The notes: a model not told the origin generated them from the sequence alone. 8,770 nucleotides of DNA from Synergistota bacterium (GCA_021161545.1 JAGHAJ010000156.1:1-8770), one strand, 5' to 3'. Counted from the first letter of the stretch, positions 4,980 to 8,770 are shown. Translations and numbers: made by a program.

Positions 4980-5768
4980 ATGGTCAAAGTGGTATTTTCC
5001 ATGTTTCTGATAATAAGTGGAATCATCCACCCAGAAAGTACATTTTACACTCCAGCCACCGGCTTGTTCATCTCAGAGATAGGAAGGTTCAACTATACGG
5101 ATGGAAAAATCACACATGTAAGGAGTCTTACAAATCCAAAGGCTGAAACAGTTCTATCCAAGCTCATGGACCCAAAGGGTATAACCCTATACCAGAACAA
5201 GTTGTGGATAGCAGATGTGAAAAGGCTACTAATACTGGATATCCGAACCAACAGAGTCTCTTCCATTGAAGGCAAGCTGTTCTCACCACATCCAGAGTTC
5301 TTAAACGATATATGCCAGGTGAATAATTCTATATATGTATCAGATACAAAGAAAAACGTTGTGTATAAAGTGAAAGGCGGAAAGGCAATAAAAACCCTAT
5401 CTATCCAAGCTCCTAATGGTATCTCCTACAATAACAATACAAGGAATACCTATATCGCCACATTCACAAAGCCCGGTAGAATACTCCAGATAAAGGGGAA
5501 ATCTGTAAAAAAGATATACGAATCAACATCCATCAGTGGAGCAGATGGTCTAACACTCTGGAAACAAAAGCACATTATTTTTGTATCTGGATTTCTCTCT
5601 GGTAATATACTGGCTATCTCTCTCAAAGACAGAAGAATTGTAGGAAACATATATGGCCTCTTTAATCCTGCAGACATATTCTTTAGTGAAGAGCAAAAAA
5701 TACTATTCGTGCCAGAGATGGGAAAAAACAGAATCCTTATATACAAAGTAAGCATAAGGGGAAGCTAA
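4980..5768 (+). CDS. Probable exported six-bladed beta-propeller protein (SMP-30/NHL-like)
   Basis: A 262-residue protein. A short hydrophobic stretch (about 4-16) after one lysine suggests a signal peptide or membrane anchor, followed by a repeat-rich body. About six blade-like repeats begin with a Gly/Asp-Ile or -Leu turn: near 28, then DPKGI (64-68), NDI (109-111), PNGI (145-148), ADGL (188-191) and PADI (230-233). These are followed by short strands such as LWIAD (75-79), IYVSD (118-122) and ILFVPE (241-246). This is the pattern of SMP-30/gluconolactonase and NHL propellers. No specific enzyme motif is certain, so a lactonase activity is not claimed; a binding or structural role at the cell surface is equally possible. 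The ATG at 4980 has GAGGGGG 6 nt upstream. The gene is monocistronic, and its stop interleaves with that of the convergent cooC-like gene. Confidence 0.75.
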   Translation: MVKVVFSMFLIISGIIHPESTFYTPATGLFISEIGRFNYTDGKITHVRSLTNPKAETVLSKLMDPKGITLYQNKLWIADVKRLLILDIRTNRVSSIEGKLFSPHPEFLNDICQVNNSIYVSDTKKNVVYKVKGGKAIKTLSIQAPNGISYNNNTRNTYIATFTKPGRILQIKGKSVKKIYESTSISGADGLTLWKQKHIIFVSGFLSGNILAISLKDRRIVGNIYGLFNPADIFFSEEQKILFVPEMGKNRILIYKVSIRGS

Positions 5769-5785
5769 GATTTTTCTGCCTCCCC
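5758..5785. other. Inverted repeat spanning the propeller/cooC stop codons
   Basis: GGGGAAGC (5758-5765) faces GCCTCCCC (5778-5785), complementary except for one A-C position, around a loop that can form an inner AGA/TCT helix. The repeat covers the shared stop codons of the two convergent genes. No good T run follows on either strand, so termination activity is only a possibility. Confidence 0.35.
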
Positions 5786-6655
5786 ATACCTTTGCAGTAC
5801 TTCTTGCAGCCTACAGACTTCTCTGACAAGTGGAAGTGTCCGTTCCTGTGAAAACATGGGAATGATGTTGGGTTCATACTCCAACAGCTTTTCCTCATAG
5901 GGCAACTCAAACACTTCTGAAAAGAGATTAAGGGTATCACCAAGCGTTCTTTCTACCTTTTTGACATCCTTATTCGAGCGAACGCGGTTGATCAAAAGGT
6001 GAACATAGGGTATCCCTATTTCCCTTGCAAGGTGGGCAGAGTGCTCAACAACTTTAATAGAATTGAATGTTGGATCAGTAACTAATACTGCCTGCTTAAA
6101 GCCCTTTGCTAACGCCCTTCCAAAGTGCTCTACACCCGCCTGCGTATCCATAAGGATGACCTCACCATCTCTAAGGTTAATATATCTTACAACAGCATCC
6201 AGTAAGGCATTTTCTGGGCAGAGGCATCCTGTAGCAGCCTGAACTACTGTCCCCATAACCAAAAGATTAACACCTATTGGCGTCCTCAATCCAAACCTAT
6301 TCACGACATCACTAACATCAGGGTTCAGCGTAAGCATCAATCCCCAACCCTCACCCGGCCGTGCTCCAACTTTCTCCTCTATATAATCGAAGTTCTTCGA
6401 AAGAGGGACTATTCTATCCCCTTCTTCCGGTGGAACACCCAATGCATAAGGAAGGTTCATCTGCGGGTCTTCATCCACTGCAAGGACATTAAAACCTGCT
6501 TTGGCAAAGAGATATGAAAGCATCGCCACAGTAGTAGTCTTACCTGCTCCTCCCTTACCAGTGACTACTACCCTAAAACCATTTTCCTCAGTAGATTCCT
6601 CTATGCTCTCTCTTATCTTATCTGCTACTGCTTTAATTCTATCACGTCTATTCAT
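5765..6655 (-). CDS. cooC: CooC-type nickel-enzyme maturation ATPase
   Basis: A 296-residue cytosolic SIMIBI/MinD-family ATPase. It shows the deviant Walker A GKGGAGKTT (33-41, signature Lys34), the switch-I-like VDEDPQMNL (60-68), the CooC-specific GCLCPENALL with C144-x-C146 (143-152) and the switch II/Walker B segment MDTQAGVEHFGR (169-180). CooC dimers use the CxC cysteines to bind metal and help insert nickel into carbon monoxide dehydrogenase; the related AcsF serves acetyl-CoA synthase. About 26 extra charged residues precede the P-loop strand, whereas typical CooC begins almost at this strand. The start at 6655 is supported by an ATGA overlap with the upstream stop and by AGGAG 10 nt before it; a longer frame to 6724 is less likely. 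It is last in an operon after NuoF-like and HoxU-like genes. The target enzyme is not in the window, so CODH as client is inferred. Confidence 0.87.
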   Translation of the reverse strand: MNRRDRIKAVADKIRESIEESTEENGFRVVVTGKGGAGKTTTVAMLSYLFAKAGFNVLAVDEDPQMNLPYALGVPPEEGDRIVPLSKNFDYIEEKVGARPGEGWGLMLTLNPDVSDVVNRFGLRTPIGVNLLVMGTVVQAATGCLCPENALLDAVVRYINLRDGEVILMDTQAGVEHFGRALAKGFKQAVLVTDPTFNSIKVVEHSAHLAREIGIPYVHLLINRVRSNKDVKKVERTLGDTLNLFSEVFELPYEEKLLEYEPNIIPMFSQERTLPLVREVCRLQEVLQRYGEAEKS

Positions 6656-7446
6656 CTCTCTACTTCTCCTCTTGTCATAAGAATGGTTCTCTTGCTGATA
6701 TACTTTCTCCTGCAGTCTGGACACATATCCTTCAGCTCATCTTCTATATCAGGTTCAATCTTCCCTGAGGCACATTCTACCATAGGCTGAGGAGCAAAAT
6801 ACCTTCCGCAAACGCTACATCTCTTCAATTCAACTTCTGTATTACTCCAAGATGTTAAAACACGAACACCCTCGGTATCCTTGATCTCTATAGCACTGGT
6901 CGGGCAAACACTGGCACACGCACCACACCCCATACACACATCACTCTTTTCAAGAAACGGGGTGTTTATTTCCGTATATTGCCCTCTACCAATATAGTTT
7001 ATCGCACTCACTCCCATAACCTCACTGCATACCCTTATACAAAGTCCACAAAGTATACACCTATTATGGAGTGGGTCCAAGGGACTAATTTTTTTAGGAA
7101 ATCTCGTCCTGCTCACACCATACTTTTTTGCCAGCTCCTTTACAGGTTCAGCCATAGGTGCCTGAGCAAGATAAAGTTCTAATATAACCTTCCTATGCTG
7201 GATAATCTCTGGTGTATCAGTAACTATTTCCAGTCCATCAACTGCACGAAGCGTACAAGAAGTAGTTATACCTTTCTTTGCACCCTTTACTACTTCCACC
7301 AAACACATCCTGCACGCACCATAAGGTTCAAGCGCATCATCATAGCAGAAAGCAGGTATATCTATACCTTCCCTTCTTGCCACAGCAAGCATGCTTTCCC
7401 CTTCTTCTGCTTCACAGACCTTCCCATTTATAACCACTCTCACCAT
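6652..7446 (-). CDS. HoxU / NuoG-N-terminal-like iron-sulfur electron-transfer protein
   Basis: A 264-residue soluble Fe-S protein, probably the electron conduit between the NuoF-like flavoprotein and a catalytic partner. Residues 1-78 form a plant-type [2Fe-2S] domain (C34, C45, C48, C64). The linker at 79-125 keeps His84 but has no cysteines, so the His-Cys3 [4Fe-4S] site of NuoG is missing. Two CxxCxxCxxxC sites follow (C130/133/136/140 and C171/174/177/181). The C-terminal 55 residues add CxxC pairs at 210/213 and 242/245 plus C225, resembling a zinc-ribbon or rubredoxin-like knuckle. It has no hydrogenase H-cluster or molybdopterin domain. The ATG at 7446 has GGGGAG 8 nt upstream and lies 5 nt after the NuoF-like stop; its own stop overlaps the cooC start as ATGA. 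HoxU of NAD-linked hydrogenases and the beta/gamma subunits of NADH-linked formate dehydrogenases are its nearest relatives by layout. Confidence 0.87.
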   Translation of the reverse strand: MVRVVINGKVCEAEEGESMLAVARREGIDIPAFCYDDALEPYGACRMCLVEVVKGAKKGITTSCTLRAVDGLEIVTDTPEIIQHRKVILELYLAQAPMAEPVKELAKKYGVSRTRFPKKISPLDPLHNRCILCGLCIRVCSEVMGVSAINYIGRGQYTEINTPFLEKSDVCMGCGACASVCPTSAIEIKDTEGVRVLTSWSNTEVELKRCSVCGRYFAPQPMVECASGKIEPDIEDELKDMCPDCRRKYISKRTILMTRGEVER

Positions 7447-7451
7447 CTCTA

Positions 7452-8770
7452 TTACTCCCCTTCAAGGCAGTCCTCGTACTCATCTGCAAAGTACTTGAGT
7501 GTGGAAATCACAGGGTTAGGTGCAGTCTGTCCAAGCCCACATAGAGATGCCTTCCTAATGGTTTCAGACAACTCCCCGAGTGTCTTTAAGTCCTCCTTTC
7601 TCCCATTACCTGCAACCAACCTATTCAAGATGTTTAACATATGGCGTAATCCTTCTCTACACGGAACACATTTACCACAAGATTCTTCATTGGTAAAACC
7701 GATAAAGAACCTTGCCGTCTCCACCATAGATGTATTCTCATCCATAACCACAATACCACCTGAACCCATTATAGAACCAAGCGCAGTAAGGTGTTCATAG
7801 TCTATAGGAGTAGAGAACAGTCTGTTTGGGATGCACCCACCAGAAGGCCCACCCGTCTGAACCGCCTTTACTCCCTTACCTTTCCTGCCACCTCCACCAA
7901 TATCATAAACCACAGTAGATATAGGCGTTCCCAGTGGCACTTCTACAAGGCCCACTCTCTCAACATCCCCTACCAGAGAAAAGACCTTCGTACCATTGTT
8001 GTCCTTAGTACCTATAGAAGAAAACCAGCCGCTTCCCCTTGCAATTATTGCCGGTATATTGCTCCATGTCTCCACATTATTAATTAGCGTAGGTTTTCCC
8101 CACAAGCCCTTTTCTGCAGGGAAAGGTGGTCTTGGTCTGGGTCTTCCTGTCTTACCTTCTACAGAGGCTATAAGAGCAGTCTCCTCACCACAGACAAATG
8201 CACCTGCTCCTCTTGCTATAGTAATCCTGAAACTAAACCCTGTACCAAATATATCATTTCCCAAGAGGCCATAGCTCTCTGCCTGTTCTATTGCCCGTTT
8301 GAGTCTCTGTATTGCAAGAGGATATTCAGCCCTCACATATATTACACCTTCATCAGCACCAACTGCATAACCCCCGATAATCATACCCTCTATAATCATA
8401 TGGGGGTCACTTTCCATCTCATTCCTATTCATGTATGCCCCTGGATCACCTTCATCTGCATTGCATATTACATACTTCTTATCACTGTCGCTCTGCGCAA
8501 CAAGTCTCCACTTTATCCCTGTGGGGAAACCTGCACCACCTCTGCCCCTTAACCCCGAAGCCTCTATCTCATTTACCACCTCAGAAGGCTTCATCTGAGT
8601 AAGCACCTTATACACGGAAGAATATCCCCCAATTGCAATGTACTCCTCTATATCCTCAGGGTTGATAAAGCCTGCATCTCTCAAGACAACTTTCTTCTGT
8701 TTGGAAAAAAACGGCACCTCACTATAATATGGGATATTCTTCAACCCTCTGCCATAAGAAACAATCTCTC
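7452..8770 (-). CDS. nuoF: NuoF-like NADH-binding flavoprotein, 5' end beyond window
   Basis: The 51-kDa diaphorase subunit, which oxidises NADH at FMN and passes electrons to Fe-S centres. Counting from a TTG at 8744, the flavin loop GLRGRGGAGFPTG is at 64-76, NADEGDPGAYMNR at 95-107 (the usual MDR is MNR), the nucleotide-site GAGAFVCGEETAL at 179-191 and the [4Fe-4S] ligands C356, C359, C362 and C402 in ESCGKCVPC and SLCGLG. It ends soon after, without the two extra ferredoxin clusters of HydB/HndC. The TTG is a poor start because its GAGGG is directly adjacent. The reading frame stays open to base 8768, and the PFFSKQKKVVLRDAG segment resembles the joint after an N-terminal thioredoxin-like [2Fe-2S] domain in longer homologues. 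I therefore treat the gene as partial. If TTG is the true start, the coding region is 7452-8744 (430 residues). First visible gene of the operon with the HoxU-like and cooC genes. Confidence 0.9.
   Translation of the reverse strand, partial: EIVSYGRGLKNIPYYSEVPFFSKQKKVVLRDAGFINPEDIEEYIAIGGYSSVYKVLTQMKPSEVVNEIEASGLRGRGGAGFPTGIKWRLVAQSDSDKKYVICNADEGDPGAYMNRNEMESDPHMIIEGMIIGGYAVGADEGVIYVRAEYPLAIQRLKRAIEQAESYGLLGNDIFGTGFSFRITIARGAGAFVCGEETALIASVEGKTGRPRPRPPFPAEKGLWGKPTLINNVETWSNIPAIIARGSGWFSSIGTKDNNGTKVFSLVGDVERVGLVEVPLGTPISTVVYDIGGGGRKGKGVKAVQTGGPSGGCIPNRLFSTPIDYEHLTALGSIMGSGGIVVMDENTSMVETARFFIGFTNEESCGKCVPCREGLRHMLNILNRLVAGNGRKEDLKTLGELSETIRKASLCGLGQTAPNPVISTLKYFADEYEDCLEGE

Follow-up and report, generated by a model that had tools for sequence, protein, structure and literature searches.

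A nuoF-hoxU-cooC run in a Synergistota genome as the probable 3' half of a CODH operon with an NADH-oxidoreductase module

The window analysed here, 8,770 nucleotides from a Synergistota bacterium (GCA_021161545.1), is the complete contig C24 (G000:C24) of an assembly of 1.58 Mb in 288 contigs that is 82% complete, so that sequence past position 8770 is absent from the assembly as a continuous stretch. The minus strand carries nuoF, hoxU and cooC in a head-to-tail run, with nuoF open to the contig edge:

7452..8770, minus strand: nuoF/BfuB-like gene for an NADH-binding flavoprotein subunit (FMN/NAD and one [4Fe-4S] domain), 5' end lost at the contig edge
6652..7446, minus strand: hoxU/BfuA-like (Type 2) gene for an Fe-S subunit of 264 aa (Fer2_4 plus two [4Fe-4S] motifs)
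5765..6655, minus strand: cooC, gene for a CODH Ni-insertase ATPase of 296 aa counted from the ATG of the ATGA overlap (Walker A, CxC)

A gap of 5 nt separates the nuoF stop codon (7454-7452) from the hoxU ATG at 7446, and the ATGA at 6655-6652 is the hoxU TGA overlapping the cooC ATG. This triplet, with its gap and overlap, had been proposed in a sequence-only reading and is borne out by the coordinates and by profile searches; a TTG at 8744 is not the nuoF start, as no stop interrupts the frame before the contig ends and N-terminal residues are missing by comparison with relatives. The run ends with cooC, on which a plus-strand gene (4980-5768) converges; this gene, which encodes a weak Arylesterase-type (PF01731) protein, overlaps the cooC stop by 4 nt. 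Elsewhere on the plus strand, at 1115-2238, a gene for a MocA-like nucleotidyltransferase overlaps a cob(I)yrinic acid a,c-diamide adenosyltransferase gene (cobA).

The visible nuoF frame encodes 438 aa and, on alignment to full-length relatives, lacks about 130 N-terminal residues. It matches TIGR01959 (4.8e-148) in profile searches, and Pfam reports PF01512 (Complex1_51K, 2.7e-49) and PF10589 (NADH_4Fe-4S, 2.9e-32) and no other domains. The ligands of the HoxU-like subunit for one [2Fe-2S] cluster (C34, C45, C48 and C64) and two [4Fe-4S] sites (C130-C140 and C171-C181) are all invariant in 23 sequences, among which no further conserved His/Cys cluster motif was found before residue 130. This fits the Type 2 BfuA pattern, in which clusters A1, A2 and A4 ([2Fe-2S] plus two [4Fe-4S]) are present without A3 and A5. 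The predicted structure (pLDDT 87) is nearest, over nearly its full length, to the BfuA-like subunit of 9mqx (Z 22.0, rmsd 2.9, 241 residues). A C-terminal CxxC...CPxC site (C210, C213, C242 and C245; residues 210-245) is likewise invariant in the 23 sequences and common to 9mqx_A. Among the 185 searched genomes of the phylum, a HoxU this close (E below 1e-119) occurs in only four. The CooC sequence clearly matches the CODH/ACS accessory protein CooC in the PDB (3kje, E 2.4e-31) and keeps both the deviant Walker A motif GKGGAGKTT and the metal-binding CxC (GCLCPE); a search of a plasmid collection with it gave one uninformative match, in Acetoanaerobium.

Scanning the HoxU alignment against 85,000 species genomes yielded 21 loci, labelled Caldisericaceae, Anaerolineae, Desulfurellales, Desulfobacterales, Desulfurobacteriaceae and others, the labels of metagenome-assembled genomes being taken as given and subject to possible binning errors. 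Upstream of nuoE-nuoF-hoxU, cooS is present in 14 of the 21, and a locus from the same phylum as the window (L026, genome G006) brings a fifteenth genome. Across these 15 genomes, which come from many phyla, the usual order is cooF-cooS-nuoE-nuoF-hoxU-(cooC), and the gaps in the operons with cooS are mostly under 70 nt or are overlaps. As for the other seven loci, the contig ends too early in five (L040, L041, L042, L052 and L056), one (L059) is without CODH, and one (L058, 2-11423) adjoins acsB, acsB, acsC and two CooC-like genes coming after nuoF-hoxU in what is an ACS-linked version of the NADH module. The same-phylum genomes G004, G006 and G008 (including GBS-1 and 42_11) have cooF-cooS-cooC-nuoE-nuoF-hoxU, the GBS-1 type thus placing cooC between cooS and nuoE; the cooF of 42_11 lies beyond the contig end. 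Two Desulfurellales loci, L050 and L057, carry nikR-rcoM-cooF-cooS-nuoE-nuoF-hoxU-cooC unbroken. A NuoE-like (BfuC) gene stands directly upstream of nuoF in the relatives, and its counterpart in the window's genome would fall in the assembly gap. The survey also bears on whether the triplet is conserved, a check that the sequence-only reading had proposed: hoxU and cooC adjoin, with nuoF-type sequence upstream, in nine other loci, whose cooC products are 56-67% identical to that of the window, and this recurrence takes the adjacency beyond chance. The CooS proteins of the relatives have invariant ligand Cys and His residues; that of L043 scores above the TIGR01702 cut-off, with 6t7j as its highest-scoring PDB chain. 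Flanking genes include one for the nickel transporter NicO in L057 and those for a periplasmic binding protein and a NikR-like protein in L039.

Contig C77 (L033) of the window's own genome carries nikR, an RcoM-like gene, cooF and then cooS, which is cut by the contig edge and reads outward in the expected direction. The CooS fragment comprises the first 307 aa (TIGR01702, 6.6e-87) and includes the D/B-cluster cysteines and HGHNP; the C-cluster Cys positions lie beyond the edge. It is 75-82% identical to CooS of L039 and L043-L048 and 51-56% identical to the GBS-1, Desulfurellales and Desulfurobacteriaceae types, and the adjoining CooF is 63-72% identical to CooF of L043-L048. The NikR protein scores 117.6 bits against NF003381 (cutoff 105), and the RcoM-like protein combines PAS (PF13596) and LytTR (PF04397) domains. 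At 1646-2762 of this contig, the NikR-like gene overlaps the PAS-LytTR gene just upstream of cooF. A PAS histidine invariant among six homologues of the RcoM-like protein is a possible candidate for a heme ligand, which would be compatible with CO sensing. A further match to CooS in the genome, on contig C53, was rejected as a hybrid-cluster-protein-like ORF and not CODH (CxxC start, weak partial match).

Given the unbroken order in L050 and L057, C77 followed by C24 reproduces a known arrangement, and we infer that these separate contigs join across about 1.9 kb, a gap (the rest of cooS, nuoE and the start of nuoF) whose size was estimated from how long these parts are in relatives. Comparison of C24 with five other contigs of the genome gave no exact end overlaps of 16-60 bases. 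CODH-type nuoE was not found in this 82%-complete genome: contig C257 carries a second nuoE-nuoF set and contig C131 a nuoE fragment, both of a different paralogue that is 35-46% identical to CODH-type NuoE. The C131 gene was considered as the missing upstream gene and rejected, its product being 70% identical to the C257 NuoE but 38-46% identical to CODH-type NuoE, and the two paralogous genes sharing an exact repeat of 109 bp. This repeat lies at 1-109 of C131, which ends there, and at 1556-1664 of C257, and it probably caused the C131 assembly break.

Taken together, we consider it likely that the triplet is the 3' half of a nikR-rcoM-cooF-cooS-[nuoE]-nuoF-hoxU-cooC operon encoding a soluble Ni-CODH joined to an NADH-oxidoreductase module, most likely a direct CO:NAD+ enzyme that works without ferredoxin bifurcation. 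The sequence-only reading had likewise suggested a Ni-dependent enzyme, CODH or a related one, that delivers electrons to NAD(H) and whose catalytic subunit may lie past 8770; the cooS genes upstream in relatives, along with the genome's own cooF-cooS at a contig edge, lend support to a Ni-CODH of this kind, subject to the join between the two contigs. In the proposed enzyme, CO would be oxidised by CooS at its Ni-Fe-S C-cluster, the nickel having been put in by CooC, and electrons would pass from CooS through CooF and the HoxU-like (Type 2 BfuA) subunit, by way of its Fe-S clusters, to NuoF with its FMN and on to NAD+; NikR and the RcoM-like PAS-LytTR protein would probably control the operon by nickel and CO. 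With standard potentials of -520 mV for CO and -320 mV for NAD+ (PMC9304861), transfer from CO to NAD+ is exergonic without ferredoxin.

The reading of direct transfer without bifurcation is drawn from the C terminus of the window NuoF, which ends about two dozen residues past CGLGQTAPNP with no further Cys motif. The bifurcating modules StnABC and HydABC are characterised by a C-terminal ferredoxin-like domain, at which ferredoxin is putatively reduced (PMC10482914), and homologues that lack the extra B clusters (B2-B5) are stated not to bifurcate (PMC9304861). Compared with the domains that define BfuB, Pfam domains standing in for those of InterPro, the window NuoF has the 51K FMN (IPR011538) and NADH_4Fe-4S (IPR019575) domains; the 4Fe-4S ferredoxin-type domain (IPR017896) that holds the extra B clusters is absent from its visible part, and the relatives show no ferredoxin-type domain in the N-terminal part that is cut from it. 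An SLBB-type domain (IPR019554) was not reported by Pfam in the N-terminally cut window NuoF, and among the relatives only L050 gave a match, below threshold. Because it lacks the ferredoxin-type domain, the window NuoF falls outside the strict definition of BfuB. A frameshift was rejected as the cause of the missing tail, since hoxU begins 5 nt past the stop codon and ten other loci end alike. The bifurcation that the sequence-only reading had entertained is therefore not what the NuoF of this genome points to, as it is without the C-terminal ferredoxin-like domain of HydB, StnB and BfuB (PMC9304861, PMC10482914).

The same CODH-NADH complex might nonetheless bifurcate, as has been proposed for Codh-Bfu (PMC9304861), with ferredoxin bound outside the C-terminal domain of NuoF, perhaps at a site on another subunit such as CooF. 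The nearest matches of NuoF and HoxU are subunits of bifurcating enzymes (7t2r_B, 9n5u_B and 9mqx_A), and the close operon relatives L039, L049, L053 and L057 do have a ferredoxin-like tail, so that bifurcation in these four is plausible. However, the tail with the extra clusters is missing from the window and ten related loci alike, the window NuoF has no 4Fe-4S domain of the kind by which BfuB is defined (IPR017896), and homologues lacking B2-B5 are stated not to bifurcate (PMC9304861); we regard bifurcation in the window's own enzyme as unlikely.

It would be a good deal less probable that nuoE-nuoF-hoxU-cooC and cooF-cooS are separate operons, the NADH module serving another catalytic subunit such as a hydrogenase. 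C77 and C24 are indeed unjoined, and the genome does hold the second nuoE-nuoF set and the nuoE fragment described above, but the NuoE identities and the 109-bp repeat rule out C131 and C257 as the missing piece, CooC sits within the triplet, the gene order of L050 and L057 is colinear with C77 plus C24, and no [FeFe] hydrogenase above the family cut-off was found. A place for the triplet in a CODH/acetyl-CoA synthase (Wood-Ljungdahl) cluster can be given hardly any weight: in L058, nuoF-hoxU does precede acsB and acsC with cooC further on, and NADH:ubiquinone-oxidoreductase-like COGs do occur among the neighbours of Wood-Ljungdahl-associated CODH (PMC6344411), but the L058 HoxU shares only 39% identity with that of the window, where the others share 48-64%, the cooS-bearing operons that were read are made up of cooF, cooS, nuoE, nuoF, hoxU and cooC, and the window's genome, at 82% completeness, has no match to AcsB/CdhC. 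Because no AcsB was found there, the CODH appears to stand alone.

The proposed CO:NAD+ arrangement of CODH and NADH-module genes is one that has been predicted before and is uncharacterised. A general association of CODH with NuoE/NuoF-like genes is published (PMC6344411), and the Deferribacter autotrophicus CODH-II and Carboxydothermus ferrireducens CODH-IV loci likewise have cooF, cooS, nuoE-like and nuoF-like genes, a 4Fe-4S dicluster protein and cooC (PMC6896113); the former, whose function was left open by its authors, has an added FNOR gene, unlike the window operon (PMC6896113). Codh-Bfu, described by Schut et al. (2022), likewise unites CODH subunits with a BfuABC-like NADH module that includes a Type 2 BfuA, and CO oxidation was proposed for it (PMC9304861). 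It comprises four Firmicutes sequences, in two of which the CODH genes lie between BfuB and BfuA, and the full set of clusters is attributed to its BfuB, whereas the window NuoF has no C-terminal clusters (PMC9304861). In the literature searched, we found no purification of Codh-Bfu and no characterised CODH-Bfu or CO:NAD+ enzyme of the window type. HydABC and StnABC share the NuoE- and NuoF-type core, but have the C-terminal ferredoxin-like domain missing here and a different catalytic input subunit (PMC10482914). In the electron-bifurcating tungsten aldehyde oxidoreductase Wor-Bfu (9mqx), a Type 2 enzyme fed by extra subunits, the HoxU-like subunit is alike in length, fold and CxxC...CPxC site and the alignment of the NADH subunit with that of L039, a relative with a tail, extends through the C-terminal ferredoxin tail, whereas the catalytic subunits differ from those of the window system. 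The cooS-cooC-cooF-FNOR operon of Geobacter sulfurreducens is likewise preceded by rcoM and passes electrons to NAD(P)+, but with an FNOR flavoprotein in place of NuoEF-HoxU; CO-dependent NADPH formation was measured in cell extract (PMC4703632). The operons described here extend the CODH-NADH arrangement well past the Firmicutes reported for Codh-Bfu and bear on the question of direct electron transfer from CODH to NAD+ through a HydBC-like module and of what makes such a module bifurcate.

Among the relatives, the NuoF tail takes three states. It is short as in the window in ten loci (GBS-1, 42_11, L041-L047 and L052), carries CPAxxC and two [4Fe-4S] motifs in L039, L049, L053 and L057, and is a GltD/NfnB-like extension in L048, L050, L051, L056 and L059; Pfam domains (Fer4_20 plus Pyr_redox_2) identify it in L048 and L050, and the sequence does so in the other three. 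A tree of the NuoF core shows at least four changes of tail state, a count that serves as a guide only, as many branches are weak. Close relatives within the Desulfurellales differ in this respect, L050 and L051 having the GltD-like FAD/NAD(P) extension and L049 and L057 the two [4Fe-4S] clusters. We tentatively suggest, with somewhat less than even confidence, that the NuoF end is a swappable acceptor module of one CODH-NADH operon family, in which the absence of a tail would go with direct CO-to-NAD+ transfer, two [4Fe-4S] clusters with bifurcation to NAD+ and ferredoxin, and a GltD/NfnB-like FAD domain with a link to NADP(H), the CO-oxidising core being rewired as domains are gained and lost, even inside a single bacterial order. 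No description of this three-state series was found in the literature searched. The operons form a natural series of one core with three tails, and the Desulfurellales swaps make the role of the ferredoxin domain testable. Two of the loci with the GltD-like extension, L056 (308-4802) and L059 (6369-10783), have nuoE-nuoF::GltD-hoxU with no cooS on the contig, possibly an NAD(P)H/ferredoxin module that stands alone or works with a different enzyme.
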